From the NCBI GenBank assembly GCA_003676145.1, contig NAUB01000032.1, positions 1 through 64,000 of the forward strand: 64,000 bases of DNA, in the 5' to 3' direction. The notes below the pieces were generated by a model. It did not search any database and was not told the origin of the DNA. It saw nothing but the letters and a program-made list of their open reading frames with translations. Position numbers and translations under genes: made by a program. The DNA comes from a gamma proteobacterium symbiont of Stewartia floridana (GTDB taxonomy: Bacteria > Pseudomonadota > Gammaproteobacteria > Chromatiales > Chromatiaceae). Below are positions 6,460 through 26,308 of this stretch, piece by piece; positions within the stretch are counted from its first letter, which is position 1; the number at the start of each line of letters is the position of its first letter.

Positions 6460-9345
6460 GTGGACAGGTCGTTTGAAGACGAGATTCAACAGGTTGGCCG
6501 CCAAATGTGGCAACAGCGTCAGCTCAAGGGGGAGGAGAATCGATCCGGCTGGATCGAACGGTTGCTTCCCCAGTTGATCGCTGATCATCATTTGCGCACT
6601 CAGGCACTTCGATTTATCGATGCCGTGCCGATGCTGAATGATGACAGGAGCCTGGTAAGACATTTCAAGGAGTATTTCGGTGAAGTGGACCCGGAAAGTC
6701 TCCCCGCGCTGATCAGTTGGGGCATCAAACGGATCTCCCTCAACGCCATACCAGGTTTCATGGCGCCGGTGATCAGGGCCGCTGTGAAAGGTGTGGCGCA
6801 TCGATTCATCGGCGGTGAAACGGCGGCTGAGATCATCGATTCCATATCTGGGCTGCAGCGCAGGGGTATCCATACCAGCCTCGACCTGCTTGGTGAGGAG
6901 AGTGTCAGTGAAAAAGAGGCATTCGCCTATCAGCAGGCCTATCTTGATCTGATCCAGCAACTCGCCAGGCAAGGATTCGATGATCTGAATCTCTCTCTGA
7001 AAGTCTCTTCCCTCTATTCACAAATTACACCAGTCGATACGGATGGCGCCGTTGGGATTCTGTTAGAGCGTCTGACACCGATCTGTGATGCGGCGATGGA
7101 TGCGGGTATCAGCCTCTGTCTCGACATGGAGCAGTATGATTACAAAGCGATCATTCTACGACTATTCAAGCAACTCGCCATGCAGCCATCCTATCGGGAG
7201 TGGCAGGGTCTTGGGGTGGTGTTGCAGGCGTATCTCAAAGAGAGCGATGAGGATTTAACTGAACTGCTTGAGTGGGTTGAGCAGCGTGGAGTGCCTGTCT
7301 CTATCAGGTTGGTGCGTGGCGCCTATTGGGATATGGAGAGCGTGATTGCGCGACAGCAGGGCTGGCGCGTACCGGTGTGGCAGACAAAAGCTGAAACGGA
7401 TGCTTGTTATGAACGTTGTTTAAAACGGCTTTTTGCATCGCCTCTGATCTATCCTGCGATAGCAACCCATAACATCCGCAGTCTCGCCTGTGCCGTTGTG
7501 TTGGCCGATCAGATGCAGCGTTCGCCAGACAGTTATGAGTTTCAGATGTTGTACGGTATGTCTGACGAACTCGAGGATCTGATTACCCAGCGCGACCGGA
7601 AACTAAGGCTCTACATGCCGTATGGCGAGATGCTGCCAGGTATTGCCTATCTGGTTCGGCGCTTGCTCGAAAATACATCGGACCAGTCGATACTGCCGAT
7701 CTTGCAGAGTGCGGATATTGAGCGAGTTCTGGCGCCACCGCTGATTGGTGAGAATCGACGCTCGGAGTTTGAGGCGGAGTTCATCAATCAACCACTGCAC
7801 AGATTTACCCAACAGTCAGAACGCGAAAACTTTTCCGATGCATTGAGATCGGTAGATCAGAAGCTGGGTAAGACCTATCCACTGTTACTGACAGGCCATA
7901 TGGCAATCGAAGAGGCATTTCTTGAATCCACCAATCCAGCGAAACCTGATCAGCTAGTCGGACGTGTGGTTCGGGCGGCTGAGGATGATGCGGAAGTGGC
8001 TCTGCAGAGAGCGGTCGATGCGCAACGTGATTGGGGCCGGAAAAGCTTCGCTGAAAGGGCTGATCTGCTTCAAGCGGCGGCATCGAAGTTGATCGAGCAT
8101 CAGGATGAGTTTGCTGCCTGGGAGGTCAAAGAGGCGGGTAAAGGGTGGCAGGAGGCGAATGCGGATGTTGCAGAGGCGATCGATTTTCTAAACTACTATG
8201 CAAAAATCTCCCTTCGCTACGACACCATCGAACAGCCCAACATGCCCGGTGAGATCAATACACATGAATATCTTCCACTAGGGATCGGAGTCATCCTGCC
8301 GCCGTGGAATTTTCCATTGGCCATTCCTGTTGGAATGGTTGCTGCAGCGATCGTGTGTGGCAATTGTGTCGTCTTGAAGCCCGCTTCTGAGACACCCATC
8401 GTGGCATGGCGTTTCTGTAAACTTTTGCAAGAGATCGGTTTGCCAGAAGGCGTTGTGAACTATCTTCCTGGTAGTGGCGCTGTGATTGGCGAGGCGATGG
8501 TGCGTGATCCAAGAACCAATTTTGTCGCCTTTACCGGCTCCAAGGAGGTTGGACTGCATTTGCTAAACGTGGTGACCACGCTTTCTGAGTCCCAGCGTCA
8601 GATTAAAAAAGTGATTGCTGAAATGGGTGGAAAGAATGCCATCATCATTGATCAGGATGCGGATCTGGATGAGGCAGTGAAAGGGGTGGTCGAATCGGCC
8701 TTTGGTTACCAGGGGCAAAAATGCAGTGCCTGTTCGAGGGTGATTTGCGTGCAGGGAATTCACGATCTGTTTGTTGCAAGACTGGTCGATGCGGTCGAGA
8801 GTATACGGATCGGCGATCCGGCATTGCCCGGATATACAATGGGTCCACTGATCTCAGCAGCGGCCAGGCAACGAATTGTCGAGAAACTGGATGAGTGTGA
8901 ATTGACTGCCTCCTGTGTTTCCAGAGTTGAGTTGCCCACCTCCCTGCAGGGTCACTATTTGCCACCGATGGTTTTCAGTGATGTTCTGGAGGATTCGCCG
9001 TTGGCGCAGCAAGAGCTGTTTGCTCCAGTCGTGGCCATATTGAAGGCTAAGAGTTTTGTTGAGGCAATAGATATTGCCAATGATAGCGACTATGCACTGA
9101 CCGGCGGGGTATACAGCCGGTCACCTGAAAACCTGAGATTGGCAAAACAGAAGTTTGCTGTCGGCAATCTCTATCTGAATCGAAAGATAACCAGAGCCAA
9201 TGTGTATCGGCAACCTTTTGGTGGCTTCAGATTGAGTGGCACTGGTTTTAAAGCGGGTGGTCCTGACTACTTACTGCAGTTTATGCAGGCACGAAGCATT
9301 ACTGAAAACAGTATGCGTAAGGGGTTTTCGCCGGAAGCGCTTTAG
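6460..9345 (+). CDS. putA: Bifunctional proline dehydrogenase / glutamate semialdehyde dehydrogenase PutA (no DNA-binding domain)
   Basis: Oxidises proline to glutamate in two steps. The N-terminal half is the FAD-binding proline dehydrogenase barrel (about residues 130-450, with LKVSSLYSQITP and RLVRGAYWD). The C-terminal half is an aldehyde dehydrogenase (about 500-950) with PWNFPLAIPVGM, EMGGKNAIII and the catalytic Cys in GYQGQKCSACSRV near residue 754. At about 961 residues it lacks the N-terminal ribbon-helix-helix and the C-terminal extension of long PutA, so it should be purely enzymatic. A TTG at 6454 is possible, but ACAGGAG ends just before it, while the GTG at 6460 has normal spacing. 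Its TAG stop starts the 18-bp repeat. Confidence 0.95.
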   Translation: MDRSFEDEIQQVGRQMWQQRQLKGEENRSGWIERLLPQLIADHHLRTQALRFIDAVPMLNDDRSLVRHFKEYFGEVDPESLPALISWGIKRISLNAIPGFMAPVIRAAVKGVAHRFIGGETAAEIIDSISGLQRRGIHTSLDLLGEESVSEKEAFAYQQAYLDLIQQLARQGFDDLNLSLKVSSLYSQITPVDTDGAVGILLERLTPICDAAMDAGISLCLDMEQYDYKAIILRLFKQLAMQPSYREWQGLGVVLQAYLKESDEDLTELLEWVEQRGVPVSIRLVRGAYWDMESVIARQQGWRVPVWQTKAETDACYERCLKRLFASPLIYPAIATHNIRSLACAVVLADQMQRSPDSYEFQMLYGMSDELEDLITQRDRKLRLYMPYGEMLPGIAYLVRRLLENTSDQSILPILQSADIERVLAPPLIGENRRSEFEAEFINQPLHRFTQQSERENFSDALRSVDQKLGKTYPLLLTGHMAIEEAFLESTNPAKPDQLVGRVVRAAEDDAEVALQRAVDAQRDWGRKSFAERADLLQAAASKLIEHQDEFAAWEVKEAGKGWQEANADVAEAIDFLNYYAKISLRYDTIEQPNMPGEINTHEYLPLGIGVILPPWNFPLAIPVGMVAAAIVCGNCVVLKPASETPIVAWRFCKLLQEIGLPEGVVNYLPGSGAVIGEAMVRDPRTNFVAFTGSKEVGLHLLNVVTTLSESQRQIKKVIAEMGGKNAIIIDQDADLDEAVKGVVESAFGYQGQKCSACSRVICVQGIHDLFVARLVDAVESIRIGDPALPGYTMGPLISAAARQRIVEKLDECELTASCVSRVELPTSLQGHYLPPMVFSDVLEDSPLAQQELFAPVVAILKAKSFVEAIDIANDSDYALTGGVYSRSPENLRLAKQKFAVGNLYLNRKITRANVYRQPFGGFRLSGTGFKAGGPDYLLQFMQARSITENSMRKGFSPEAL

Positions 9346-9467: not shown

Positions 9468-11825
9468 ATGAAATCGATAAAGCAAGCGGTTTTAGACAAG
9501 CAGATCGATCTGCTCTTTTCCTACAGTGGCACTGTGGTGACCTCGGGAATCGCCGTTGGCTTGTTTGCCTGGATCTACTTTTCATTTGTCATCGATAGTC
9601 TCTGGCTGGTGCTCTGGGGTGTGTCACTGGTTGGCGTGAACCTGGCCAGACTCTATCTGCTACAGCGTTTCAAACGAATCAACAAAGCTCAGGCAATTCT
9701 CAGCATCTGGTTGCGCAGGCACCTTATTCTGACGTTTGTCAGCGGTCTGATATGGGGTTTGCTGAGTCTCGCCTATGATCCGAACTGGGCAACTTCTCAT
9801 CAGGTGATGCTGGTGATGCTGCTGACCGGATTGGCCGCCTTCAGTATTACGGCTTATGCCGCCGTACTTGAAGTCTATGTGGTGTTCCTTATTCCGTTGC
9901 TGCTTCCCCTGGAGCTGGATCTGGTGGCCAGGGGGGAAATCTTCACCTCGCTACTTGCTGTGCTGTTGCTGATGTTTGCCATCGGTATGCTGTTTGTCGC
10001 GAGACGCTTTTATATCCAGTACATTGAAAGTATCCATCTGTCGTTTGAACACCAGTTTCTGCAGAAAGAGTTGATGAATGGCTCTCAGCATTTGGAGAGT
10101 ATGGAGCACGCCTTAAAGAATGCTGAACAACAGTTTGACAATGTTCTGGAGACCTCTCTGGATGGGTATTGGGAGTGGGATCTGCAGAGAGATGATCTCT
10201 ATCTCTCACCGCGCTGGAAGGCGCAGTTGGGTTATAAGGATCACGAATTGAAAAGTGAACTGGAAACCTGGAAAAATCTACTCCATCCTGATGACCGAAA
10301 TGTGATTTTGGAGAAACTCGATAACTATCTGGAACACCCCAGAGGGCATTGGGAAGCGGAATTTCGTTTGCTCAATAAAAGTGGTGGTTATCGGGGGATT
10401 CTTGCAAGAGCCACGCCGACACTTGATGAGCAAGGTAAGTTGATCAGGCTGACCGGTGTGCATATCGATATCACAGAGCGGGTCAAAGCGGAGAACAAAA
10501 TAAAGAAGCTGGCCTACTACGACAGGCTCACCAAGCTGCCTAACCGGATGCTGTTCAATGACAGAATCAGCCATGCCATCTCCCAAGCCAAACATACCGG
10601 CCTGAAACTCTGCATTCTGTTTTTGGACCTGGACCGGTTTAAAAATATCAATGACAGTTTTGGTCATCCGGCGGGTGATCATGTATTGAAAATGATTGCG
10701 GAACGATTGCGAAAGGTTGTCAGGGAGGATGACACACTGGCGAGACTGGGTGGTGATGAGTTTGCGGTGCTGGTGGAGAACGTTCACCACTCTCATCATG
10801 CGGCACTGATGGCGGGTAAGATCAAAAGCAGTTTCGAAGAGAGTTTTGTGGTCGGTGGCCACGATTTCTATATCAGTGGCAGTATCGGTATTTCTGTCTA
10901 CCCAAACGATGGGGCTGATGCGGCCAGTCTGTTGAAAAATGCCGATGCGGCTATGTATAAGGCGAAGAGTATCGATCGGGGCGGTTTTCAGTTTTATACC
11001 GAAGAGTTGAGTGAAAATGCGTTGCAACACTACACCATCGATTCCGGTCTTCGTCAGGCTCTCAGCAAGCAGCAGTTTTCAGTTCTGTATCAACCCAAGA
11101 TCGATCTCTCATCCGGATCGATTAAAGGCGCTGAAGCACTGGTGCGTTGGAGGCATCCGCAACTGGGAGAGATCCCGCCGGAGCAGTTCATACCCATAGC
11201 GGAAGAGACGGGTCAGATCAGAGGGATTGGCGAGTGGGTATTGTCGCAAGCCTGTAAAACGGCACAGGAGTGGCAATCTCAAGGTCTTGATGTTGGCAGA
11301 ATGGCAGTCAATCTTTCAGGTATTCAACTTCTGAGTGACGATTTTCTGGAGACGGTGAAGAGTATTCTGCTGAAGACCGGTCTGCCGACAGAGCTGCTGG
11401 AGCTTGAGGTTACGGAAAACATACTGATGCGTGACAGTGAGAAGTCGATCAACACGCTGGACCAGTTGCAAAGCATGGGGATCAATATCGCCATCGATGA
11501 TTTCGGTACCGGCTATTCATCATTGGCCCAACTGACCACCCTGCCGGTTGATAAGTTGAAAATCGATCGTAGTTTTGTCACCACGGTCTGTCAGGACCAA
11601 CAGAGTGCGGAGATTTCGAGAACCATCATTGCTCTGGGCCGTACCCTCAACAAGGTGGTGATTGCCGAGGGAATCGAATACTCCGATCAACAGGATTTTC
11701 TGCGCCAGGAAGGTTGTGATGAGGGTCAGGGCTTTCTCTTCTCCAGGCCAATGACCAGTCGCCAGTTTATCGAATTCGCAGAAAATAACGGTCAGCAGGC
11801 CAGGTTGACCACCTTGCAGTCGTAA
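9468..11825 (+). CDS. Membrane-bound PAS-GGDEF-EAL c-di-GMP enzyme
   Basis: 785 residues. The first 190 or so hold about six membrane helices, then a short coiled-coil-like linker and a PAS/PAC domain (about 220-345, WEWDLQRDDLYLSPRWK to VHIDITERVKAE). The GGDEF domain (about 350-515) keeps the intact active site LGGDEFAVL near residue 427, so diguanylate cyclase activity is possible. The EAL domain (about 530-775) keeps EALVRW near residue 555, plus ENILM and DDFGTGYSSL, so phosphodiesterase activity is also possible. It would make or break c-di-GMP according to signals sensed by the membrane and PAS parts. A TACAAT -10-like hexamer lies at about 9419-9424. It has no operon partner. Confidence 0.92.
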   Translation: MKSIKQAVLDKQIDLLFSYSGTVVTSGIAVGLFAWIYFSFVIDSLWLVLWGVSLVGVNLARLYLLQRFKRINKAQAILSIWLRRHLILTFVSGLIWGLLSLAYDPNWATSHQVMLVMLLTGLAAFSITAYAAVLEVYVVFLIPLLLPLELDLVARGEIFTSLLAVLLLMFAIGMLFVARRFYIQYIESIHLSFEHQFLQKELMNGSQHLESMEHALKNAEQQFDNVLETSLDGYWEWDLQRDDLYLSPRWKAQLGYKDHELKSELETWKNLLHPDDRNVILEKLDNYLEHPRGHWEAEFRLLNKSGGYRGILARATPTLDEQGKLIRLTGVHIDITERVKAENKIKKLAYYDRLTKLPNRMLFNDRISHAISQAKHTGLKLCILFLDLDRFKNINDSFGHPAGDHVLKMIAERLRKVVREDDTLARLGGDEFAVLVENVHHSHHAALMAGKIKSSFEESFVVGGHDFYISGSIGISVYPNDGADAASLLKNADAAMYKAKSIDRGGFQFYTEELSENALQHYTIDSGLRQALSKQQFSVLYQPKIDLSSGSIKGAEALVRWRHPQLGEIPPEQFIPIAEETGQIRGIGEWVLSQACKTAQEWQSQGLDVGRMAVNLSGIQLLSDDFLETVKSILLKTGLPTELLELEVTENILMRDSEKSINTLDQLQSMGINIAIDDFGTGYSSLAQLTTLPVDKLKIDRSFVTTVCQDQQSAEISRTIIALGRTLNKVVIAEGIEYSDQQDFLRQEGCDEGQGFLFSRPMTSRQFIEFAENNGQQARLTTLQS

Positions 11826-14940: not shown

Positions 14941-15543
14941 ATGTCTCATTCGAAACCGAACAAACCGCTGCGTGTCATGCTGGTGGATGATAAGTCCGAC
15001 CGGCGGGAGATGATCGATTTTGCTCTGCAGGATATCGAGTGTGCACTGGTGGCTTGTGTCTCCGGTGACGGGGATCTGTTGTCTGCGGTACAGCAGTGTA
15101 ATCCGGATGTGATTCTGATCGATATCGAGGCACCGGGCAGGGACACGTTGGAGAGTCTTGAGTCGGTACAGAGTACGGTGCCCCGTCCCATGGTGATGTT
15201 CTCCCAGGATGACAATAACCGGACCATCCGGCGCGCTACACAGGCCGGGGTTAGCGCCTATGTAGTGGATGGTCTGCAGGGCAATCGGGTTCGCCCGATC
15301 ATCGATGCGGCTGTGGCCCGCTTCCAGCACTTCAACCATCTTGAGTCGGAGTTGAAAAAAGCCCATCAGCAGCTGAATGACCGGAAGGTGATCGACAAGG
15401 CTAAGGGGATCATTATGAAGCAGCGTGGAGTGAATGAGGAACAGGCCTATCAGGCGATGCGCAAACTGGCGATGGATACCAATCGTAAGATTGCCGAGGT
15501 GGCGCAGAACATCATCGAGGCGGCGAGTATCCTCTCAGGATGA
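14941..15543 (+). CDS. nasT: NasT-type ANTAR response regulator (transcription antiterminator)
   Basis: About 200 residues: a pseudo-receiver domain (LRVMLVDDKSDRREM, VILIDIEAPGRDTLESL, GVSAYVVDGL) and a C-terminal ANTAR RNA-binding domain (KAKGIIMKQRGVNEEQAYQAMRKLAM). The receiver wording is diagnostic of NasT, which binds paired hexaloop hairpins in nitrate-assimilation leader RNAs and prevents termination. The candidate target RNA starts about 245 bases downstream. NasT is usually held inactive by the nitrate sensor NasS; no separate nasS lies in this window. Start uncertain: ATG 14941 lacks a clear ribosome binding site, and a TTG at 14923 is in frame. Confidence 0.9.
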   Translation: MSHSKPNKPLRVMLVDDKSDRREMIDFALQDIECALVACVSGDGDLLSAVQQCNPDVILIDIEAPGRDTLESLESVQSTVPRPMVMFSQDDNNRTIRRATQAGVSAYVVDGLQGNRVRPIIDAAVARFQHFNHLESELKKAHQQLNDRKVIDKAKGIIMKQRGVNEEQAYQAMRKLAMDTNRKIAEVAQNIIEAASILSG

Positions 15544-15573: not shown

Positions 15574-15590
15574 TGCACAAAGTTGGTGAC
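15574..15590 (+). promoter_or_regulatory. Candidate NtrC site upstream of nrtA
   Basis: TGCACA-AAGTT-GGTGAC fits the NtrC palindrome TGCACC-N5-GGTGCA at 9 of 12 defined bases with correct spacing. It lies about 190 bases before the predicted sigma-54 start, within usual enhancer range. Confidence 0.45.
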
Positions 15591-15749
15591 TTTTTTTAGT
15601 GCATTTCTTGCCGTTTGATTACCTCGCGGTTAACTCGTTCTGGCATTCGATTGATCCACTCTCCCGCTCTATTCACTGATTTAACTCTTATAAAAAACAA
15701 CAACTAAGTTACTCCTGGTGGTCATGCATGTTGATCGCTGATTGAGACT

Positions 15750-15765
15750 TGGCATGTGGTTTGCT
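15750..15765 (+). promoter_or_regulatory. Sigma-54 (-24/-12) promoter of the nitrate assimilation operon
   Basis: TGGCAT-GTGGT-TTGCT matches TGGCAC-N5-TTGCW at all but one base, with the GG and GC ten bases apart. Transcription would start near 15775, only about a dozen bases before the first ANTAR hairpin, so the whole regulatory leader would be transcribed. Confidence 0.82.
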
Positions 15766-15787
15766 CTATGTTTGCAAAGGTTGAATT

Positions 15788-15819
15788 TGGTCCAAAGGCG
15801 GACCAGCCCAATGGCGGGC
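15788..15819 (+). promoter_or_regulatory. ANTAR-type double hexaloop motif 1 in the nrtA leader RNA
   Basis: Hairpin P1 has a 6-bp stem TGGTCC/GGACCA closing the loop AAAGGC. Directly abutting, hairpin P2 has a 4-bp stem GCCC/GGGC closing the loop AATGGC. Both six-base loops have A at position 1 and G at position 4, the recognition pattern of ANTAR antiterminators. Confidence 0.8.
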
Positions 15820-15841
15820 ATCCAACCGATTTACGAATTCA

Positions 15842-15875
15842 GGTCAATGCAGGCCGACCTAGGACAAAGGCGTCC
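15842..15875 (+). promoter_or_regulatory. ANTAR-type double hexaloop motif 2, overlapping the terminator
   Basis: The first hairpin has stem GGTC/GGCC (one G-U pair) around AATGCA. Six bases later a second has stem GGAC/GTCC around AAAGGC. Both loops keep A1 and G4. The right arm of the second (15872-15875) is part of the 5' arm of the intrinsic terminator, so the two structures exclude each other. The first stem is weak, and an alternative 5-bp AGGTC/GACCT pairing exists. Confidence 0.68.
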
Positions 15876-15922
15876 ACTTCCACACGATCTTCGATCGTGG
15901 CTGGGAGTGGGCGCTTTTTTTT
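15870..15922 (+). terminator. Regulated intrinsic terminator in the nrtA leader
   Basis: A 12-bp outer stem (15870-15881 with 15903-15914, two G-U pairs) and a 6-bp inner stem (CACGAT/ATCGTG, loop CTTCG) are followed by eight T. It sits about 50 bases before nrtA, so without antitermination the operon would be switched off. Confidence 0.92.
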
Positions 15923-15970
15923 GCCTGCTGATCAGTAGAGATTTTTTGACATTTACCAGAGGTGTTTTTC

Positions 15971-17377
15971 ATGAGTTCAAGCAGTTTCATCAAGAACAGC
16001 AGTCGCAGGGGTTTCCTGAAACGGGCGGCGTTGACTGTCGCTTTGTCTGCCGGTCTCGGTTTGGCAAGCGGTACCGCATCGGCAGAGATTGGCTATCCCG
16101 AAAAGGAGGACCTTAAGTTCGGTTTCATCAAATTGACCGATATGGCGCCATTGGCCATCGCCTACGAAAAGGGCTACTTCGAGGATGAGGGTTTGTACGT
16201 CACCCTGGAAGCCCAGGCCAACTGGAAGGTGCTGCTCGATGGGGTTATCGATGGGCAGTTGGAGGGCGCCCATATGCTGGCCGGTCAGCCCTTGGCTGCA
16301 ACCATCGGTTTCGGCACCAAGGCGCATATCGTCACCCCGTTCAGTATGGATCTCAATGGTAACGGCATAACCGTTTCCAACGCAGTGTGGGAGCAGATGA
16401 AACCTCATGTGCCGAAACAGGCCGATGGCAAACCGGTTCATCCGATCAAGGCGGACGCTCTGAAGCCGGTGGTCGATCAATACAAGAAGGACGGCAAGCC
16501 TTTCAAGATGGGTATGGTGTTTCCGGTATCGACCCACAACTACGAGCTGCGTTACTGGTTGGCAGCCGGGGGAATCAATCCGGGTTACTACGCGCCGCAC
16601 AAGGGTGATATCACTGGGCAGTTGAAGGCCGATGCGCTGCTTTCAGTAACCCCACCGCCACAGATGCCGGCAACCTTGGAGGCGGGCACCATCTACGGTT
16701 ACTGCGTGGGTGAACCCTGGAATCAACAGGCCGTATTCAAAGGGATCGGTGTGCCGGTGATTACCGACTATGAGATCTGGAAGGATAACCCGGAGAAGGT
16801 TTTCGGTATGACCAAGGAGTTCACGGAGAAGTATCCGAATACCACTATCCGGGTTGTGAAAGCGTTGATTCGTGCCGGTAAGTGGCTCGATGAGAACGAC
16901 AATGCCAACCGCCCCGAAGCGGTGAAGATTCTCTCTCAGCCCAACTATGTGGGGGCCGATTACGAAGTGATCGCCAACTCCATGACCGGCACCTTCGAGT
17001 ATGAAAAAGGGGATAAACGTTCGGTTCCCGACTTTAATGTCTTCTTCCGCTACAACGCCACCTATCCCTACTACTCGGATGCGGTCTGGTATCTGACCCA
17101 GATGCGTCGCTGGGGACAGATCTCGGAAAAGAAACCCGACAGCTGGTACGACAAAGTGGCTAAGAGTGTCTATCGGCCCGACATCTATCAGCAAGCGGCT
17201 GAATCCCTGATTGCCGAAGGCAAGATGAAAGCGGACGAATTCCCCGATTTCAAAACAGAAACCGGTTATCGCAAACCTCAGACCGAATTCATCGATGAGG
17301 TGACATTCGATGGCACCAAACCCAATGAGTACATCGACAGTTTCAGCATCGGTCTGAAGGGGGATGAACAGGTTTGA
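15971..17377 (+). CDS. nrtA: Nitrate ABC transporter substrate-binding protein NrtA (Tat-exported)
   Basis: 468 residues. The N-terminus carries a perfect twin-arginine motif (SRRGFLKRA) and a hydrophobic stretch ending ASA, so it is exported folded by the Tat route. The mature part is the NrtA/CmpA/NasF nitrate-nitrite binding fold ([57 protein letters not shown]). The ATG at 15971 follows AGAGG at eight bases; a GTG at 15962 is less likely. First gene of the operon nrtABC-nirBD-nasA. A 9-bp hairpin follows its stop. Confidence 0.94.
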
Positions 17378-17491: not shown

Positions 17492-18520
17492 ATGGCAACT
17501 TCAATTTCATCAAAGACATTCAACCTGCCATGGCTCGAGTCGATGCTCAATCGCTTGGCCAGTGACCAGTTCGGTAAATCCGTCACCCAGTTGATCAAGC
17601 AACTGTTGGTACCCCTCATTGCCCTGGTGATATTTCTCGGACTCTGGAATGTGGGCGCCAAACATGTGGAGACCTCGCTGGGTGTATTGCCCGGTCCGGT
17701 GAAAGTCTGGGAGCAGACTCAGTCTTTGTACCAGGAACACAATGCGGAACGGGCGAAAGCGGACGCTTTCTACGAACGCATGCAGGGACGTATCGACAAG
17801 GCGGTAGCCGCCGGTCAGCCGGAAGAGCGCATCGAGCGGATGCGGGCCAGAAAATATACCGGCAAAGAGACCTTTTTCGATCAAATTCTGACCAGCCTGC
17901 TGACCGTGATGGTGGGTTTTGTGGTTGCCTCATTGATTGCCATTCCGATCGGTATTGTCTGCGGTATGAGCGCTACTCTCTATACGGCGATCAACCCCTT
18001 GATCCAGATCTTCAAACCGGTCTCGCCCCTCGCCTGGTTACCACTTGTGACGATGGTGGTCTCGGCACTCTATGTGAGCGATGATCCACTCTTCTCCAAA
18101 TCATTTCTCAACTCGGCGATTACCGTCACGCTGTGTTGTCTCTGGCCCACCATCATCAATACCACGGTGGGTGTCTCCGGGGTCGATAAGGATCTGATCA
18201 ATGTCAGCCGGGTATTGCGACTCAACGCCTTCACCAAGACGCTGAAGATTGTACTGCCTTCAGCGATTCCGATGATCTTCACCGGTCTGCGTCTGTCGCT
18301 GGGTATCGGCTGGATGGTGCTGATCGCCGCCGAGATGCTGGCGCAGAATCCCGGCCTGGGCAAGTTCGTCTGGGACGAGTTTCAAAACGGCAGCTCCGAC
18401 TCCCTGGCGAGGATCATGGTGGCGGTACTGGTGATCGGTTTTATCGGTTTTCTGCTCGATCGCGGCATGTTGATGCTGCAGCGGAGCTTCAGCTGGGACA
18501 AGAACGCGGTACTGCGTTAA
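17492..18520 (+). CDS. nrtB: Nitrate ABC transporter permease NrtB
   Basis: 342 residues with about six membrane helices and the binding-protein-dependent permease signature (GLRLSLGIGWMVLIAAEMLAQNPGLGKFVWDEF, an EAA-loop region). Between the first helix and the rest lies a charged segment of about 60 residues (NAERAKADAFYERM and following), probably a periplasmic insertion seen in NrtB proteins. It is followed 38 bases later by nrtC. With NrtA and NrtC it imports nitrate and nitrite. Confidence 0.93.
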   Translation: MATSISSKTFNLPWLESMLNRLASDQFGKSVTQLIKQLLVPLIALVIFLGLWNVGAKHVETSLGVLPGPVKVWEQTQSLYQEHNAERAKADAFYERMQGRIDKAVAAGQPEERIERMRARKYTGKETFFDQILTSLLTVMVGFVVASLIAIPIGIVCGMSATLYTAINPLIQIFKPVSPLAWLPLVTMVVSALYVSDDPLFSKSFLNSAITVTLCCLWPTIINTTVGVSGVDKDLINVSRVLRLNAFTKTLKIVLPSAIPMIFTGLRLSLGIGWMVLIAAEMLAQNPGLGKFVWDEFQNGSSDSLARIMVAVLVIGFIGFLLDRGMLMLQRSFSWDKNAVLR

Positions 18521-18558: not shown

Positions 18559-20766
18559 ATGAACAACTATCTGAATATCGACCATGTGAGTATCACCTTC
18601 CCGACCGATAACGGTCCGTTGAATGTGCTAAACGATGTGGATCTGAAAGTCTCCCAGGGGGAGTTCATCTCTCTCATCGGTCACTCGGGCTGTGGTAAGT
18701 CCACGGTGCTGAATATTGTGGCCGGCCTGCTGAATGCCACCGAGGGTGGGGTGATACTCGAAGAGAAAGAGGTTACCGAACCCGGGCCGGATCGGGCGGT
18801 GGTGTTTCAGAACCACTCCCTGCTGCCCTGGCTGACCGTCTATGACAATGTACGTCTGGCGGTGGATCAGGTCTTCAAAAAGAGTAAATCGAAAGAGGAG
18901 CGGCATCGCTGGACTCTGCACAATCTGGAACTGGTGCATATGTCCCATGCCCTCGATCGCAAACCGGATGAGATATCGGGCGGTATGAAACAGCGTGTCG
19001 GTATTGCTCGCGCTTTGGCGATGGAACCGAAAGTGCTGCTGATGGACGAACCCTTCGGTGCGCTCGACTCATTGACCCGCACCCACATGCAGGACTCCCT
19101 GATGGAGATTCAGGCGCGGCTCAACAATACGGTAATCATGATCACCCACGATGTGGATGAGGCGGTACTGCTCTCCGATCGGATCATCATGATGACCAAC
19201 GGTCCTTCCGCCACCATCGGTGAGATTCTCAACATCGATCTGCCCAAGCCACGCAACCGTCTGGCTCTGGCGGAGAACCCGGTCTACAACCACTACCGGG
19301 CAGAAGTGGTGCGCTTTCTTCATGAACGTCATCAGCAGCCGGAAGAGGAGAAAGTTCAGCCGCAGGCTAAGGTTGAGGTAGAAAGCGACACCGTGGTCGA
19401 TCTTTCGGCCTGGTTGAAATCGAGCCAATCGGCCAGTGGTAAAACCCTTGAAAAGGATCATCTTACTCTCGGTTTTATCCCGCTGACCGACTGTGCTCCC
19501 CTGGTGGTGGCGAAAGAGAAGGGCTTCTTTCACCAGCAGGGATTGAATGTGGAGCTGTCGCGGGAGAACTCCTGGGCCAATATCCGCGACAAGGTGGGTA
19601 TCGGTATGCTCGATGGGGCGCAGATGCTGGCGGCCATGCCCCTGGCCAGTGCGCTGGGTGTGAGCGGTTCTGTGCCGATGATCACCGGCATGAGTCTCGA
19701 CCTCAACGGTAACGGCATTACCGTATCCAAGGATATCCATCAACGCATGGTGGCCAGCGGTGAAAGGGATCTCGATAGTCTGGCCGGCAGTGGTCGGGCG
19801 TTGAAAAAAGTGATCGAGGAGAACCGGGCTGCCGGTGGCAAGCCGCTGATGTTCGCCACGGTGTTTCCCTACTCATCCCACAACTATCTGCTGCGCTACT
19901 GGCTGGCCGCCTCAGGCATCGACCCGGATAACGACATTCAACTGACAGTGGTACCGCCACCGCAGATGGTCAACTATCTGCAGGCCGGGGTGATCTCGGG
20001 TTTCTGTGTCGGTGAACCCTGGAATACCCTGGCGGTATGCAACGGCCTGGGTCATACCCTGGCAGCCAGTTACGACATCTGGAACAACCATCCGGAGAAG
20101 GTGTTTGGTGTGGCCAGCAGTTGGGCGGCCGCCAATCCGAATACCCACCAGGCGGTGATCACCGCCTTGATCAAGGCCTGTGAGTGGATCGATCAGGCGG
20201 AAAACCGCAAAGAGGTTTGCGAACTGCTGAGTCAGGGACGCTACGTCAATGCGCCTCAGGAGATACTGGAGAAGTCGATGCTCGGCACATTTCAGTTCTC
20301 CCGTGACGAGGCGGCTGTGGAGCGGGCCGACTTTAATGTCTTCAATCGTTACAACGCCAACTTTCCCTGGCGTTCCCATGCGATCTGGTTTTTAACCCAG
20401 ATGGTTCGCTGGGGTCAGTTACGGGATCCGTTCGATATGCAACGAATCGCCAAGCTGGTCTATCAACCGGAGATCTACCGTAAGGCCGCCGCTTCCCTCT
20501 CCATTGATCTGCCACAGAGTGACATCAAATCGGAAGGGATCCATGGCGAAGCCTGGCAGCTTGCCGGGGAGCAGCAGAACCTGACCATGGGTTCGGATCT
20601 GTTCTTCGATGGTAAAGCCTTCGATCCGCAGCAACCCATCGACTATCTGACCGAACAGCCGGTCAGCAGCCTGGGTTGCTCGATTGAAGCCCTGCTGCAG
20701 GCCAATCCATCCAAGCGGTCCCTATCACCGGATACCGAGCCTTTGACTGAAGAGGCAAGCCAATGA
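18559..20766 (+). CDS. nrtC: Nitrate ABC transporter ATPase with fused NrtA-like regulatory domain NrtC
   Basis: 735 residues in two parts. Residues 1-265 are an ABC ATPase (Walker A GHSGCGKST, signature ISGGMKQRVG, Walker B VLLMDEPFGAL, ITHDVDEAV). Residues about 300-690 are a second copy of the NrtA fold (LTLGFIPLTDCAPLVVAKEKGFF, SSHNYLLRYWLAASGID, GFCVGEPWNTLAV), in the cytoplasm. This arrangement is that of cyanobacterial NrtC, where the extra domain senses nitrate and lets ammonium inhibit transport. Here it might also stand in for a missing NasS, which has the same fold. The stop overlaps the nirB start by four bases. Confidence 0.94.
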   Translation: MNNYLNIDHVSITFPTDNGPLNVLNDVDLKVSQGEFISLIGHSGCGKSTVLNIVAGLLNATEGGVILEEKEVTEPGPDRAVVFQNHSLLPWLTVYDNVRLAVDQVFKKSKSKEERHRWTLHNLELVHMSHALDRKPDEISGGMKQRVGIARALAMEPKVLLMDEPFGALDSLTRTHMQDSLMEIQARLNNTVIMITHDVDEAVLLSDRIIMMTNGPSATIGEILNIDLPKPRNRLALAENPVYNHYRAEVVRFLHERHQQPEEEKVQPQAKVEVESDTVVDLSAWLKSSQSASGKTLEKDHLTLGFIPLTDCAPLVVAKEKGFFHQQGLNVELSRENSWANIRDKVGIGMLDGAQMLAAMPLASALGVSGSVPMITGMSLDLNGNGITVSKDIHQRMVASGERDLDSLAGSGRALKKVIEENRAAGGKPLMFATVFPYSSHNYLLRYWLAASGIDPDNDIQLTVVPPPQMVNYLQAGVISGFCVGEPWNTLAVCNGLGHTLAASYDIWNNHPEKVFGVASSWAAANPNTHQAVITALIKACEWIDQAENRKEVCELLSQGRYVNAPQEILEKSMLGTFQFSRDEAAVERADFNVFNRYNANFPWRSHAIWFLTQMVRWGQLRDPFDMQRIAKLVYQPEIYRKAAASLSIDLPQSDIKSEGIHGEAWQLAGEQQNLTMGSDLFFDGKAFDPQQPIDYLTEQPVSSLGCSIEALLQANPSKRSLSPDTEPLTEEASQ

Positions 20767-23216
20767 AAAAACAGAAACTGATCCTGATCGGCAACGGCAT
20801 GGCCGGGGTTCGCACCCTGGAAGAGCTGCTCAAACTGGAAGCCGATTTATATGACATTAGCGTGTTCGGCGCTGAGCCCCATCCCAACTACAACCGCATC
20901 ATGCTCTCCCCGGTATTGGCCGGTGAGAAGCAGGTGGAAGAGATCGTGCTCAACAGTCGGGAGTGGTATGCGGAAAACCATATCACCCTGCATACCGGCG
21001 ATCCGGTGACTGCCATCGATCGTAAGGCCAGGCAGATCACAACCGCTTCGGGAATGAGCGCATCCTACGATCGTCTGTTGCTGGCTACCGGCTCCAATCC
21101 ATTCATTATTCCCGTGCCTGGGCACGATCTGCCCGGGGTGGTGGGGTTCCGCGATATTCAGGATGTGGAGACCATGCTGGCGTCTGCCCGCCAATACAAA
21201 AAGGCGGTGGTGATCGGTGGCGGGCTGCTGGGACTGGAGGCGGCCAACGGTCTGAAGAAGAACGGTATGGATGTGACGGTGGTCCATCTGATGGATATGC
21301 TCATGGAGCGCCAGCTGGACAAGCCGGCCGCCACTCTGTTGAAGGCTTCACTGGAGGAGGGCGGATTGAAGTTTCTGATGGAGGCACAGACCGAGGCGAT
21401 CCTTGGTGATCAACGGGTGACCGGCGTGCGCTTCAAGGATGGCACTGAGATCGATACCGATCTGGTGGTGATGGCCGTCGGAATCCGTCCCAACATGGCC
21501 CTGGCCGATGCGGCAGGGCTCCATTGCGAGCGAGGCATCGTGGTCAACGATACCCTGCAGACCTTCGACCCCCGCATCTATGCGGTGGGTGAATGTGTGC
21601 AGCACCGAAACAATACCTACGGTCTGGTAGCACCCCTGTTCGAACAGGCCAAGGTCTGCGCCAACCATCTGGCCCAGCTTGGTTATGGCCGCTATCAGGG
21701 ATCGGTTACCTCGACAAAACTGAAGGTGACGGGGATCGATCTCTTCTCTGCCGGTGAGTTCAACGAGGCAGAGGGTGACGAAACCCTGGTGCTGCAGGAT
21801 CCCGCTCAAGGAGTCTACAAAAAGCTGGTGATCCGGGATAACCGCATCAAAGGCGCTGTGATGTATGGCGACACCATGGATGGCAGCTGGTATTTCCAAC
21901 TGTTGCGGGAAGCGACCGATATCTCCAGTTTCCGCAACACTATTCTGTTCGGTCAGCACGACCTGGGTGATGCGGGACATGGGGAGGAGACCCGGGTCGG
22001 CATGCTCTCCGATGAGGCAGAGATCTGTGGTTGTAACGGAGTCTGTAAAGGGGAGATCGTCAACGCCATTACCAGTCAGGGTCTGTTCACCCTGGATGAG
22101 GTGCGAGCTCACACCAAGGCTTCCGCCTCCTGCGGATCCTGTACCGGCATGGTGGAAGCGTTGCTGGCTTCCACGGTCGGCGAGGGTTATGCGGCCACGC
22201 CGAGCAAGAAGGCGGTCTGCGGTTGCACCAGCTACAGCCATGATGAAGTGCGCAAGGCGATCAGCGAGCTTGGGTTGAAATCGATGCCTGAGCTGTTCGA
22301 TAAGCTCGACTGGGGTACCCCGGATGGTTGTCCAAGCTGTCGGCCTGCCCTCAACTACTATCTGCTGGCCGCCTGGCCGGCCGAGTATCGGGACGACGCC
22401 CAATCACGTTTCATCAATGAGCGGGCCCACGGCAATATCCAGAAGGATGGCAGTTACTCTGTGGTGCCACGGATGTTTGGCGGTCTCTGCAGCGCCGATG
22501 ATCTGCGCGCCATCGCCGATGTGGCGGATAAATTCGAGGTGCCGGAGATCAAGGTCACCGGTGGTCAGCGGATCGATCTGTTCGGTGTGAAGAAGGAGCA
22601 GCTACCGGCGGTATGGAAGGATCTCTCCGAGGCCGGGTTCGTTTCCGGACATGCCTATGGCAAGGCCCTGCGTACGGTAAAAACCTGTGTCGGTAAAAAC
22701 TGGTGCCGCTTCGGCACTCAGGACTCCACCGGACTGGGCGTGAAGCTGGAAGAGCTGACCTGGGGCTCGTGGATGCCCCACAAGTTCAAGCTGGCGGTCT
22801 CCGGCTGTCCCCGTAACTGCGCTGAAGCGACCATCAAGGATCTGGGTGTGGTCTGTGTCGACTCCGGTTATGAGCTGCACATCGGCGGCAATGGGGGAAT
22901 CAAGGTGCGGGTCACCGACCTGCTCTGCAAGGTTGAGAGCGAACAGGAGGTGTTGGAGTACACCGGTGCCTTCATCCAGTGCTACCGGGAGGAGGCCCGC
23001 TATCTGGAGCGTACCGCACCCTGGGTGGAACGGGTCAGTCTGAACTATGTGAAGCAGCGTGTCGTGGAAGACAAGGTGGGTAGAAAGGCCCTCTATGAGC
23101 GCTTCAAACTGAGTCAGCAGTACGCTCAGGTCGACCCCTGGAAGGCGCGTGCCGAAGGGGCTGAGACCCATGAATTCACACCATTGAGCATCGACCGTAT
23201 GAGGGCTGCATCATGA
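20763..23216 (+). CDS. nirB: NAD(P)H-dependent nitrite reductase large subunit NirB
   Basis: 817 residues; reduces nitrite to ammonium in the cytoplasm. Order: FAD/NAD-binding oxidoreductase (about 1-300, LIGNGMAGVRTLEEL, VVIGGGLLGLEAANGLKK), two BFD-type [2Fe-2S] motifs (CGCNGVCKG with SCGSCTG; CGCTSYSHDEV with GCPSCRP), ferredoxin-like half-domain, then the sirohaem/[4Fe-4S] domain with its four ligating Cys in CVGKNWCRFG and SGCPRNCAEA. All cofactor motifs are intact. It overlaps nrtC and nirD by four bases each, which implies coupled translation. Confidence 0.95.
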   Translation: MKKQKLILIGNGMAGVRTLEELLKLEADLYDISVFGAEPHPNYNRIMLSPVLAGEKQVEEIVLNSREWYAENHITLHTGDPVTAIDRKARQITTASGMSASYDRLLLATGSNPFIIPVPGHDLPGVVGFRDIQDVETMLASARQYKKAVVIGGGLLGLEAANGLKKNGMDVTVVHLMDMLMERQLDKPAATLLKASLEEGGLKFLMEAQTEAILGDQRVTGVRFKDGTEIDTDLVVMAVGIRPNMALADAAGLHCERGIVVNDTLQTFDPRIYAVGECVQHRNNTYGLVAPLFEQAKVCANHLAQLGYGRYQGSVTSTKLKVTGIDLFSAGEFNEAEGDETLVLQDPAQGVYKKLVIRDNRIKGAVMYGDTMDGSWYFQLLREATDISSFRNTILFGQHDLGDAGHGEETRVGMLSDEAEICGCNGVCKGEIVNAITSQGLFTLDEVRAHTKASASCGSCTGMVEALLASTVGEGYAATPSKKAVCGCTSYSHDEVRKAISELGLKSMPELFDKLDWGTPDGCPSCRPALNYYLLAAWPAEYRDDAQSRFINERAHGNIQKDGSYSVVPRMFGGLCSADDLRAIADVADKFEVPEIKVTGGQRIDLFGVKKEQLPAVWKDLSEAGFVSGHAYGKALRTVKTCVGKNWCRFGTQDSTGLGVKLEELTWGSWMPHKFKLAVSGCPRNCAEATIKDLGVVCVDSGYELHIGGNGGIKVRVTDLLCKVESEQEVLEYTGAFIQCYREEARYLERTAPWVERVSLNYVKQRVVEDKVGRKALYERFKLSQQYAQVDPWKARAEGAETHEFTPLSIDRMRAAS

Positions 23217-23542
23217 ACGACTGGATCCCTGTAACCAAGCTTGAAGAGATCCCCAGACTGGGCGCCCGTAAACTGCAGGCAGGTGAGCTGGATATCGCCC
23301 TGTTTCGTACCGGTAGTGATGAGGTCTTTGCCCTGCGGGACCGCTGTCCCCATCGGGGAGGCCCCCTGTCGCAAGGCATCGTTCATGGGGAGGCGGTGAC
23401 CTGCCCGCTGCACAACTGGAAGATCGATCTGCAGAGTGGTGAAGTGCAGGGTCCGGACCAGGGCTGTGTGCACAGCTTCGCAGTGAGGATCGAAGAGGGG
23501 GTGGTCTATCTCGATATCGCCTCTCTGGAGTCCGCGGCTTGA
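23213..23542 (+). CDS. nirD: Nitrite reductase small subunit NirD (Rieske-type)
   Basis: 109 residues with a full Rieske ligand set: Cys45-x-His47 (CPH) and Cys64-x2-His67 (CPLH). Some NirD proteins, such as the E. coli one, lack these ligands, so this one probably binds a [2Fe-2S] cluster. It pairs with NirB, whose gene it overlaps by four bases. A 99-base gap without an obvious promoter separates it from nasA. Confidence 0.93.
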   Translation: MNDWIPVTKLEEIPRLGARKLQAGELDIALFRTGSDEVFALRDRCPHRGGPLSQGIVHGEAVTCPLHNWKIDLQSGEVQGPDQGCVHSFAVRIEEGVVYLDIASLESAA

Positions 23543-23641: not shown

Positions 23642-26308
23642 ATGCCTGAGACGATCAACACAACCTGTCCCTATTGCGGGGTCGGTTGCGGCCTGCTGGT
23701 CGAGCCTGACGTCGACGGCGGCTGGCGGATTCAGGGAGATCCCGACCACCCATCCAATCAGGGGCGCCTCTGCTCCAAGGGTAGCGCACTCAACGAAACC
23801 CTGGATCTGGATGGCCGTCTGCTGTCACCGATGGTCGACGGCAAACCGGCGGATTGGAATCTGGCGATCGAGCGGGTTGCCAGCCGTTTTCGTCAGGTGG
23901 TCGACGAGCATGGCCCGGATGCGGTGGCCTTCTACGTATCCGGCCAGCTGCTGACCGAAGACTACTATGTGGCGAACAAGCTGATGAAGGGCTTCATCGG
24001 TTCGGGCAACATCGACACCAACTCCCGGCTCTGTATGTCCTCATCGGTGGCCGGTCACAAACGGGCCTTTGGTTCAGACACGGTGCCGGGTTGTTATGAG
24101 GATTTCGAGCAGGCGGAACTGATTGTTCTCACCGGTTCCAACACCGCCTGGTGCCATCCGGTGCTGTATCGACGTATCGTCAAGGCGAAGGAGAACAATC
24201 CGGCCCTGAAGGTGGTGGTGATCGATCCCCGGGAGACTGCCACCTGTGAGATTGCCGATCTGCACCTGCCCCTCAAGCCGGGCAGTGACAGCCTGCTGTT
24301 CAATGGTCTGCTCAGCTTTCTGGATCGTCACGATGCCAAAGACCAGGACTTTGTCGCCTCCCATACCGAAGGTCTGCAAGAGGCGTTGAAGCGCGCCCAC
24401 TGGTATGCCCCCTCAGCCCAGGCAACCGCTGAGCATTGTGGTCTGCCGGTGGATGATCTGCTGACCCTGTTTCACTGGTTTCTGGTCAAACAGCGGGTGG
24501 TCACCCTCTACTCCCAGGGGATCAATCAGACCTCCAGCGGTACCGATAAGGTCAATGGAATCATCAACTGCCATCTCTACACCGGACGGATCGGTCAGCC
24601 AGGCATGGGGCCCTTCTCCATTACCGGTCAGCCCAACGCCATGGGAGGCCGGGAAGTGGGGGCATTGAGTAACCAGCTGGCCTGCCACATGGATATCGAG
24701 AACCGGGATCATCGCTCACTGGTAGGGCGCTTCTGGCAAAGCGATTCAGTGACGGAGAGACCAGGCCTCAAGGCGGTGGATCTCTACCGGGCCGTTGAGA
24801 CGGGAGGGATCAAGGCGCTCTGGGTGATGGCCACCAATCCGGCGGTCAGTATGCCGGATGCCAATCAGGTCGCAAGGGCGCTCGACAAGTGTGAGTTTCT
24901 GGTGGTCTCGGACTGTATGGCCGAGACCGATACCGCCCGCTATGCGGATGTGCTGCTGCCCGCCCAGGGTTGGGGTGAGAAGTCGGGTACCGTAACCAGT
25001 TCCGAACGTACCATCAGTCGTCAGCACCGTTTTCTGGCGTCGGCCGGAGAGGCCAAGCCAGACTGGTGGATTGTCAGTCAGGTGGCGCAAAGGATGGGTT
25101 ATCAAGGGTTTGATTATCACTCCGCACAGCAGATCTTCAGCGAATATGCGGAGCTCTCCGGATTCGAGAATGGCGGCCGGCGTGATTTCGATATTTCCGC
25201 CCTGGCCGGGCTCGATGCGGATTCCTACGATCGGTTGAAGCCGGTCCAGTGGCCGGTGGTGAACGGCCAGGCCAAAGGAACGCCCAGGCTGTTCAGCGAT
25301 GGTCGGTTCTATACCCCATCGGGACGTGCGCAGTTTGTTGCAGTGACCCCGCAGCCGCCGGGCAACTTTCCTTCAGATCCCTATCCTCTGGTACTCAACA
25401 CAGGCCGGGTCAGGGATCAGTGGCACACCATGACCCGAACCGGTAAATCCCCTCGTTTGTCCGGTCACGACAATGAGCCGTTTGCCGAAATCCATCCTCT
25501 GGATGCGGATAACAACCAGCTGGTGGAGGGTGGTCTGGTCAGGGTCAGCAGTCGCTGGGGCGAAGTGGTGGTCCGCGCCCGTCTGAGTGAACATCAGCAG
25601 TTGGGGCAGATCTTTGTGCCGATGCACTGGAACGATCAGTTTGCCAGCAACGCAACCGTCGATTGCCTGGTCAACCCGGCGCTCGATCCAATCTCCGGAC
25701 AGCCGGAGTTCAAACACACACCGGTGACAATCGAAGCCTATAAACCCGCTTGGTACGGTTTTCTGCTGACCCGTGAACGAGTCATGCTGGAACATGCGAC
25801 CTACTGGGCGAAGGCGAAACGGGATGGTCTTTGGCACTTCGAATTGGCTGGAGAGACCACCGCGGAGGATTGGTCCGAGCTGGCCCGCAACCTGCTCAGC
25901 TCGGCCAGCGATACCGGTCAATGGGCCGAGATGATGGACAGTGCCGGTGGTCAATACCGGGGTGTCAGTGTCAACGATGGCCAGCTGCAGAGCTGCCTTT
26001 TCATCGGCCCGGATCACAATCTGCCGAAGCGGGACTGGCTGGTGCAACTGTTTGCTAAAAAACACCTTTCCCGCCAGGAGCGACTACGCTTGCTCGCCGG
26101 CGCACCAATCAATGCCCAGGAGGATGCAGGCAAGACAGTCTGTGCCTGTTTCGGGGTGGGTTTGAACACCTTGGTCAGCGCGATCGAGGATCAGGGGCTT
26201 CAGACTACCCAGGCGATCGGTGAAAAGCTCAAGGCGGGTACCAACTGCGGCTCCTGCCTGTCGGAGATCAATCGTCTGATCAAAGAGAGACAGGTTCAAA
26301 CGGCGTAA
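23642..26308 (+). CDS. nasA: Assimilatory nitrate reductase catalytic subunit NasA
   Basis: 888 residues; reduces nitrate to nitrite in the cytoplasm. The N-terminal [4Fe-4S] ligands are in CPYCGVGCGLLV and CSKGSALNE, followed by the bis-MGD molybdopterin domains (SRLCMSSSVAGHKRAFG, MATNPAVSMPDANQV) and the C-terminal MGD domain (LVLNTGRVRDQWHTMTRTG). The end (about 835-885) is a BFD-like [2Fe-2S] domain with Cys pairs CACFG and CGSC. No signal peptide, as expected for an assimilatory enzyme. No NasC-type flavoprotein partner is encoded nearby, so electrons may come from ferredoxin or an unlinked reductase. Confidence 0.94.
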   Translation: MPETINTTCPYCGVGCGLLVEPDVDGGWRIQGDPDHPSNQGRLCSKGSALNETLDLDGRLLSPMVDGKPADWNLAIERVASRFRQVVDEHGPDAVAFYVSGQLLTEDYYVANKLMKGFIGSGNIDTNSRLCMSSSVAGHKRAFGSDTVPGCYEDFEQAELIVLTGSNTAWCHPVLYRRIVKAKENNPALKVVVIDPRETATCEIADLHLPLKPGSDSLLFNGLLSFLDRHDAKDQDFVASHTEGLQEALKRAHWYAPSAQATAEHCGLPVDDLLTLFHWFLVKQRVVTLYSQGINQTSSGTDKVNGIINCHLYTGRIGQPGMGPFSITGQPNAMGGREVGALSNQLACHMDIENRDHRSLVGRFWQSDSVTERPGLKAVDLYRAVETGGIKALWVMATNPAVSMPDANQVARALDKCEFLVVSDCMAETDTARYADVLLPAQGWGEKSGTVTSSERTISRQHRFLASAGEAKPDWWIVSQVAQRMGYQGFDYHSAQQIFSEYAELSGFENGGRRDFDISALAGLDADSYDRLKPVQWPVVNGQAKGTPRLFSDGRFYTPSGRAQFVAVTPQPPGNFPSDPYPLVLNTGRVRDQWHTMTRTGKSPRLSGHDNEPFAEIHPLDADNNQLVEGGLVRVSSRWGEVVVRARLSEHQQLGQIFVPMHWNDQFASNATVDCLVNPALDPISGQPEFKHTPVTIEAYKPAWYGFLLTRERVMLEHATYWAKAKRDGLWHFELAGETTAEDWSELARNLLSSASDTGQWAEMMDSAGGQYRGVSVNDGQLQSCLFIGPDHNLPKRDWLVQLFAKKHLSRQERLRLLAGAPINAQEDAGKTVCACFGVGLNTLVSAIEDQGLQTTQAIGEKLKAGTNCGSCLSEINRLIKERQVQTA

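Follow-up and report, generated by a model that had tools for sequence, protein, structure and literature searches.

The nitrate assimilation operon nrtABC-nirBD-nasA of this symbiont is preceded by a leader that holds a sigma-54-type promoter, four hairpins with A1/G4 hexaloops (A at loop position 1 and G at position 4), and an intrinsic terminator that overlaps the last hairpin. Judging by the folding models, this leader reads better as a switch (hairpins H3 and H4) joined to a separate, self-folding module (H1 and H2) than as the two tandem pairs proposed in an earlier note on this DNA, because H4 flips with the terminator while H1–H2 fold unchanged. The window analyzed here is a stretch of 64,000 nucleotides from the gammaproteobacterial symbiont of the clam Stewartia floridana (contig NAUB01000032.1, positions 1–64,000), and all features below are given in window coordinates on the + strand. 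The genus is Candidatus Thiodiazotropha. The best named match of the NasT protein comes from Candidatus Thiodiazotropha sp. ex Monitilora ramsayi (locus L038, 89%).

The gene directly upstream of the leader, nasT (14941–15543), encodes a response-regulator receiver domain and an ANTAR RNA-binding domain (Pfam Response_reg, 9.7e-11; ANTAR, 1.3e-21) and is the presumed antiterminator. A gap of 427 bp separates it from the genes downstream, all on the same strand: nrtA (15971–17377; Pfam NMT1_2, 7.7e-98), coding for a nitrate-binding transport protein with a Tat-type signal recognized by eye, nrtB (17492–18520; permease, Pfam BPD_transp_1), nrtC (18559–20766), nirB (20763–23216; nitrite reductase large subunit), nirD (23213–23542; small subunit, named by its position and its conserved counterpart in relatives), and nasA (23642–26308; assimilatory nitrate reductase, Pfam Molybdopterin, Molydop_binding, and Fer2_BFD). 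The nrtC product joins an ABC ATPase and a NasS-like nitrate-binding domain in one protein, a candidate partner of NasT.

The promoter is a −24/−12 element with a GG-N10-GC core (TGGCATGTGGTTTGC, 15750–15764), read directly from the sequence and matching the sigma-54 consensus. About 160 bp 5′ of it lies an NtrC-like dyad (15574–15590) that matches 9 of the 12 letters of the NtrC consensus and is weak taken alone. Downstream, the hairpin scan finds four hairpins, each closed by a C:G pair: H1 (15788–15805; 6 bp, loop AAAGGC), H2 (15806–15819; 4 bp, loop AATGGC), H3 (15842–15855; 4 bp including one G-U, loop AATGCA), and H4 (15862–15875; 4 bp, loop AAAGGC), the last of which also appears in the folds. 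In the folding models, an outer stem GGTTG/CAACC encloses H1 and H2 in an upstream module (15779–15827). The terminator (15870–15922) emerges from the folds with a 13-bp lower stem (arms 15870–15882 and 15902–15914), a 2-nt bulge, a 7-bp upper stem, and eight T (15915–15922). A consensus terminator scan does not list it and has its sole match elsewhere. The 3′ arm of H4 and the terminator have bases 15870–15875 in common. Thus, the promoter, the four A1/G4 loops, the shared last hairpin, and the position of nasT are as the earlier note had described them, and it was also right that four hexaloops exceed the two of the published motif.

H3 and H4 correspond to the hairpins P1 and P2 of known ANTAR antiterminators. 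The ANTAR motif for EutV is described by A1/G4 hexaloops and a P2 that overlaps the terminator (PMC3369931, PMC3369936), and a SELEX study on NasR reports a C:G closing pair on the hexaloop (PMC7496416). In the window, H3 and H4 are two adjacent hairpins with A1/G4 hexaloops on stems of at least 3 bp, and the linker between them is short (6 nt, against 4–15 nt in 60 leaders for which short spacing had been a selection criterion). H3–H4 therefore has the anatomy of an ordinary ANTAR P1–P2 antiterminator, and this kind of switch is already known.

The folding models separate the two halves of the leader. The whole leader folds far better than its dinucleotide shuffles (z −5.55, with 0 of 200 as good), mostly owing to the terminator; for the leader without it, z is −1.13 and 20 of 200 shuffles are as good. 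H4 overlaps and excludes the terminator: its modeled pairing probability is 0.96–0.98 before the terminator is transcribed and 0.00 thereafter. H1 (0.99–1.00), H2 (0.98–0.99), and their outer stem (0.88–0.94) are predicted to pair with or without the terminator. H3 is modeled at only 0.33–0.41, its competitor in the 105-nt fold being an alternative pairing with a ten-base loop. The terminator has a predicted energy of −32.8 kcal/mol. If H4 forms, the remainder is left with −16.6 kcal/mol, and six bases separate the shortened stem from the T run.

To place this leader among others, we counted as leaders those loci in which one hexaloop overlaps a terminator and a second lies upstream of it, with C:G or U:G as closing pair. 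This yielded 113 distinct leaders, of which 82 come from NasT-protein loci (L008–L117) and a further 31 from an RNA model of the P1–P2 pair, which matched in 45 of 369 genomes of the class search and 29 of 194 of the family search. L001–L007, L119, L120, exact duplicates, and loci from L178 on are left out of the counts. Leaders first found at L118–L177 were picked by the P1–P2 model and are biased to good P1–P2 pairs. Likewise, the counts of P1–P2 base pairs (24 of 60 rows aligned) are partly circular, because the rows were chosen for having those hairpins. The stretch between promoter and P1 played no role in selection, so a test of loop types there is free of this circularity.

Two hexaloops are the commonest state (66 leaders), followed by three (37) and four (10); the figures are 57, 32, and 5 in 94 clusters and 50, 23, and 9 in the NasT-protein loci only. 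Four occur in seven of the nine leaders from the genus that come with the NasT type of the window, in L018 and L020 from two further genera of the family, and in one leader from outside it (L140). The upstream test covered leaders in which promoter and P1 are 25 nt or more apart (88 of the 113, or 69 of the 94 clusters). Dinucleotide shuffles of the 69 non-redundant leaders yield 1.7 upstream A1/G4 hexaloops, the leaders themselves 41, whereas the 15 other combinations of position 1 and position 4 stay at background (24 against 20.4). Without removal of duplicates, 56 are found in the 88 leaders against 2.0. At least one such loop is present in 36 of the 69; the largest number in 60 shuffles is 5. 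The extra upstream hexaloops are thus real as a sequence feature. Across all leaders with extra hexaloops, the minimum-energy fold leaves 41 of the 57 upstream loops open, and in 47 the closing pair exceeds a probability of 0.5. In L018, one of the four-hexaloop leaders outside the genus, neither upstream hexaloop is formed, and the model pairs H1 with H2. Upstream C1/C4 hexaloops are also somewhat enriched (8 in 88 leaders, 6 after duplicate removal, against 1.65 in shuffles of the 88).

The opposite strand of 80 NasT loci served as a control and gave no leader with C:G closing pairs only, and two (L087 and L099) when U:G was allowed. These two look like true leaders, since they stand directly before a divergent nirB-nasA operon. 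Both are three-hexaloop leaders on the minus strand, and in reversed-locus coordinates their P2 lies near 8513 and 8709. Transcription of the operon there leads away from nasT, and regulator and target can thus lie on different strands. A Mesorhizobium locus (L066) has two separate dual-hexaloop leaders (8031–8063 and 11563–11595), ∼3.5 kb apart.

A strong sigma-54 match lies at most 70 nt 5′ of the first hexaloop in 83 of the 113 leaders, against 0.14 expected from mononucleotide shuffles. NtrC-like sites with at least 9 of 12 letters are present upstream in 53 of 83 leaders, compared with 8.5% of mononucleotide shuffles; the best site of the window has 9. Nitrogen control of the leader through sigma-54 and NtrC is therefore likely.

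Within the genus, nine leaders could be compared, namely those accompanied by the NasT type of the window (87–100% identity). All nine keep A1 and G4 in H2, H3, and H4, and seven keep them in H1. In the other two (L010 and L016), the H1 stem is preserved and the loop begins with C, so that A1 is lost. By eye, a hairpin with a different loop stands at the place of H1 in L017, L157, and L164, whereas in L019 and L168 the upstream module is down to one hexaloop hairpin; H1 is present in L018 and L020 from related genera. Over ten alignment rows, all cells of H2 are paired, and three of its pairs show two-sided changes. In H1, 85% of cells are paired, with two outer pairs each failing in four of the ten rows. 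Because its loop is altered or lost among relatives, H1 appears as the optional and least conserved element, and H2-H3-H4 as the usual set in the lineage of the window. The GGTTG/CAACC closing stem is misaligned by MAFFT and was left out of the pair count. In 40 non-redundant upstream units, matched flanks pair slightly better than mismatched ones (p = 0.006), with 7 of 40 past the 5% mark, and the stem looks convincing in some lineages only. A closing stem as a general feature of upstream units was too weakly favored to be kept, and we claim it for the window lineage alone.

Three genomes of the genus (G006, G015, and G019) keep the leader of the nitrate transporter and have no NasT match (L178, about 4010–4180; L179, about 3850–4020; L212, about 1750–1920). 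G006 and G015 encode a NIT-ANTAR (NasR-type) protein; no ANTAR protein was found in G019. In all three leaders, H1 is gone and G4 of the P1 loop has changed to C on a largely kept P1 stem, and H2 and P2 retain A1/G4. In G109 (L023), a stop interrupts the nasT frame and only the terminator-overlapping P2 hexaloop is left, which looks like a joint decay of the regulator and its docking hairpins. From these losses, loop letters tend to go along with NasT, in cases that are few and related.

The genome of the window encodes NasT with its receiver and ANTAR domains, and a stand-alone NasS was not found in the 4.55 Mb, which are ∼97% complete, so that a miss is possible. NMT1_2 matches five proteins of this genome: NrtA (329 bits), the fused NrtC domain (310 bits), and three others at 26–49 bits. 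In a tree of 54 sequences drawn from 144 proteins, NasS of Guyparkeria and Alcanivoracaceae forms a group with the C-terminal half of NrtC (support 0.86), and NrtA stands apart from it; the deeper nodes are weak (0.24–0.56). A full-length NasS-like match (46–49% identity) occurs in 11 of 22 genomes of the genus, exactly those with NasT; the other 11 gave no such match. In nine of the 11, it sits within a frame of 737–761 residues, long enough for the fusion, and the ATPase part was seen in G000, G002, G018, and G013 (L038). The match lies in a frame of ∼500 residues in G004 and G009, in G004 behind a separate ATPase. G015 and G019 have nrtA, nrtB, the ATPase, and nasA and lack both NasT and the NasS-like domain. 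The joint loss is not independent evidence, because the genes share an operon. In Paracoccus, NasS holds NasT until nitrate binds, and NasT binds the nasA leader (PMC3795266); we infer that the fused NrtC domain may act in place of NasS. A second ANTAR protein is encoded in the genome (frame of 194 amino acids, G000:C24:206614–206766, L002), for which no terminator-type leader was found in the genome. Two further genome matches of the P1–P2 model (E 0.035 and 0.45) were rejected, being inside long open frames and without a terminator-overlapping leader; one leader, and not a regulon, was therefore found in the genome.

In several respects, the system resembles those already described. With the dual-hexaloop leaders of EutV/eut, NasR/nasF, and AmiR/amiE (PMC3369931, PMC3369936), it has in common the A1/G4 hexaloops, the overlap of P2 with the terminator, and the nearby ANTAR gene; unlike them, it adds two hexaloops in a closed upstream module without a tie to the terminator. 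With NasS–NasT control in Paracoccus (PMC3795266, PMC5424462) and Bradyrhizobium (PMC6759348), it shares the NasT homologue, a leader between regulator and nas genes, and the nitrate operon, but here no stand-alone NasS was found, the NasS-like domain resides on the transporter ATPase, and four A1/G4 hexaloops are present. Cyanobacterial NrtC with its C-terminal regulatory domain (PDB codes 8wm7 and 8w9m) has the same fusion of ATPase and NrtA-like domain and aligns over residues 3–653. In contrast, the NrtC of the window belongs to a NasT operon, and its domain groups with gammaproteobacterial NasS, in a tree that contains no cyanobacterial domains.

At gathering scores, Rfam has no match in the whole window, and a plasmid collection gave no DNA match to the leader. 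Below threshold, the full model of P11 (RF00625; sigma-54 element, hexaloop hairpins, and terminator with GGACAAAGGCGUCC) matches 15738–15915 at 18.6 bits, far below its cut-off of 70, and narK RNA (RF03032; sigma-54 element, one annotated hexaloop hairpin, and GACAAAGACGUC P2) matches over its full length at 17.2 bits with a cut-off of 43.2. The closed two-hexaloop module of the window has no equivalent in P11. Other leaders match P11 or narK RNA as well, mostly below threshold. The sole P11 match over the cut-off (L217:1501–1640) carries A1/G4 in three hexaloops, with a G:C closing pair on the middle one, and narK RNA passes in one of 20 leader loci searched (L142:1467–1537). The scores alone prove nothing, because a ctRNA and three miRNA families, unrelated to these, reach similar scores on the terminator part when searched alongside. 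By the layout of their models, P11 and narK RNA look like NasT/NasR-type leaders.

We consider it highly probable, from the anatomy, the mutually exclusive folds, the conservation, and the loop excess observed here, that H3–H4 is a switch of antitermination under the control of NasT, with NasT binding and the nitrate and nitrogen inputs as its presumed parts. At low nitrogen, a transcript would start from the sigma-54 promoter, probably through NtrC, and would by default fold into the terminator, whereupon transcription stops. Nitrate would set NasT free to bind the hexaloops and to hold H4 closed. A closed H4 would remove the lower terminator stem and leave six bases before the T run, so that polymerase would read into nrtABC-nirBD-nasA. 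For H1–H2, we lean toward a docking role for NasT. This module is made first and would fold whatever the terminator does; it may load NasT early on the nascent RNA and thereby raise the local NasT concentration. It would resemble the “recruitment hairpin” of EutV, but multiplied. In the EutV model, a dimer first sits on the recruitment hairpin and from there moves to the antitermination hairpin, and the structural work leaves open why ANTAR antitermination needs a terminator-free P1 (PMC8934654). By analogy, a module that offers one or two hexaloops would add to this recruitment.

Other explanations of H1–H2 have to be weighed against docking. The earlier note took the four hexaloops as two tandem pairs that could give a sharper or graded response; on this view, two equivalent P1–P2 pairs would each bind one NasT dimer and respond cooperatively. 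The four loops in the window are indeed grouped 2 + 2, with H1 directly adjoining H2, but the pairs are unequal: only H3–H4 overlaps a terminator, and H1–H2 has none of its own. The gap between H1 and H2 is 2 nt when 4-bp stems are counted, against 4–15 nt in 60 P1–P2 pairs, and H1 is often lost while H2 stays, leaving three hexaloops in relatives rather than 2 + 2. That note had looked to homologous leaders for a fallback to one pair. None is seen in the window lineage, but two full pairs are not kept either, and we regard equivalent pairs as unlikely. A plain dual-hexaloop switch, in which only H3–H4 matters and H1–H2, its loops unbound, goes back to an ancient duplication or caps the 5′ end structurally, appears similarly improbable. 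It would agree with the prevalence of two-hexaloop leaders, with the variability of H1 even inside the genus, with the persistence of H2 in the three genomes that lack a NasT match, of which two encode a NasR-type protein, and with some upstream hexaloops elsewhere that remain unformed in the models. The confinement of the upstream excess to A1/G4 loops speaks against it, as do stems that vary with compensation around constant loops, H2 with its three two-sided pairs in particular. That the hairpins arose by chance beside an ordinary terminator has next to no probability: A1/G4 hexaloops taken singly are frequent, with 67 along the + strand of the window, but the opposite-strand control, the excess over shuffles, and the conservation in relatives are all contrary to it.

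EutX RNA titrates EutV. By analogy, the terminated leader (∼145 nt) might be released with H1–H2 intact, soak up free NasT, and set a threshold, an explanation that we judge doubtful and that is compatible with docking. The module stays folded in the modeled RNA that includes the terminator (0.99, 0.99, and 0.94), the related P11 is registered in Rfam as a Pseudomonas small RNA whose model runs from the sigma-54 element to the terminator, and EutX has an extra single hexaloop beside its dual motif (PMC8934654). Against this, a single leader was found in the genome, so decoy and target would arise from one promoter. A wider proposal, which we offer with little confidence, would join docking and decoy: the NasS-like domain of the importer ATPase may keep NasT at the membrane and let it go on nitrate import, a hexaloop array of which only the last hexaloop controls the terminator would collect it, terminated transcripts would be pre-folded decoys that reset the threshold, and arrays of three or four hexaloops would be common in nitrate leaders.

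Work on the Pseudomonas nirBD/P11 leader may mention extra hairpins. In the main-text passages searched of the open-licence PMC literature, no ANTAR terminator leader with three or four hexaloops was found described, and the nearest case there is the extra hexaloop of EutX (PMC8934654). The class is thus known, and within the literature searched, a multi-hexaloop array with a closed docking module was not found.

The hexaloop count suggests that nitrate leaders have more potential binding sites than the definition of a “dual hexaloop” allows for. Natural leaders, some of them in close relatives, carry one, two, or three hexaloops 5′ of the switch hairpin and provide material for tests of loading, hand-off, and decoy. 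Nitrate assimilation in the genus differs among symbiont clades from waters with different nitrate supply (PMC11168628), and the switch would therefore be ecologically relevant.
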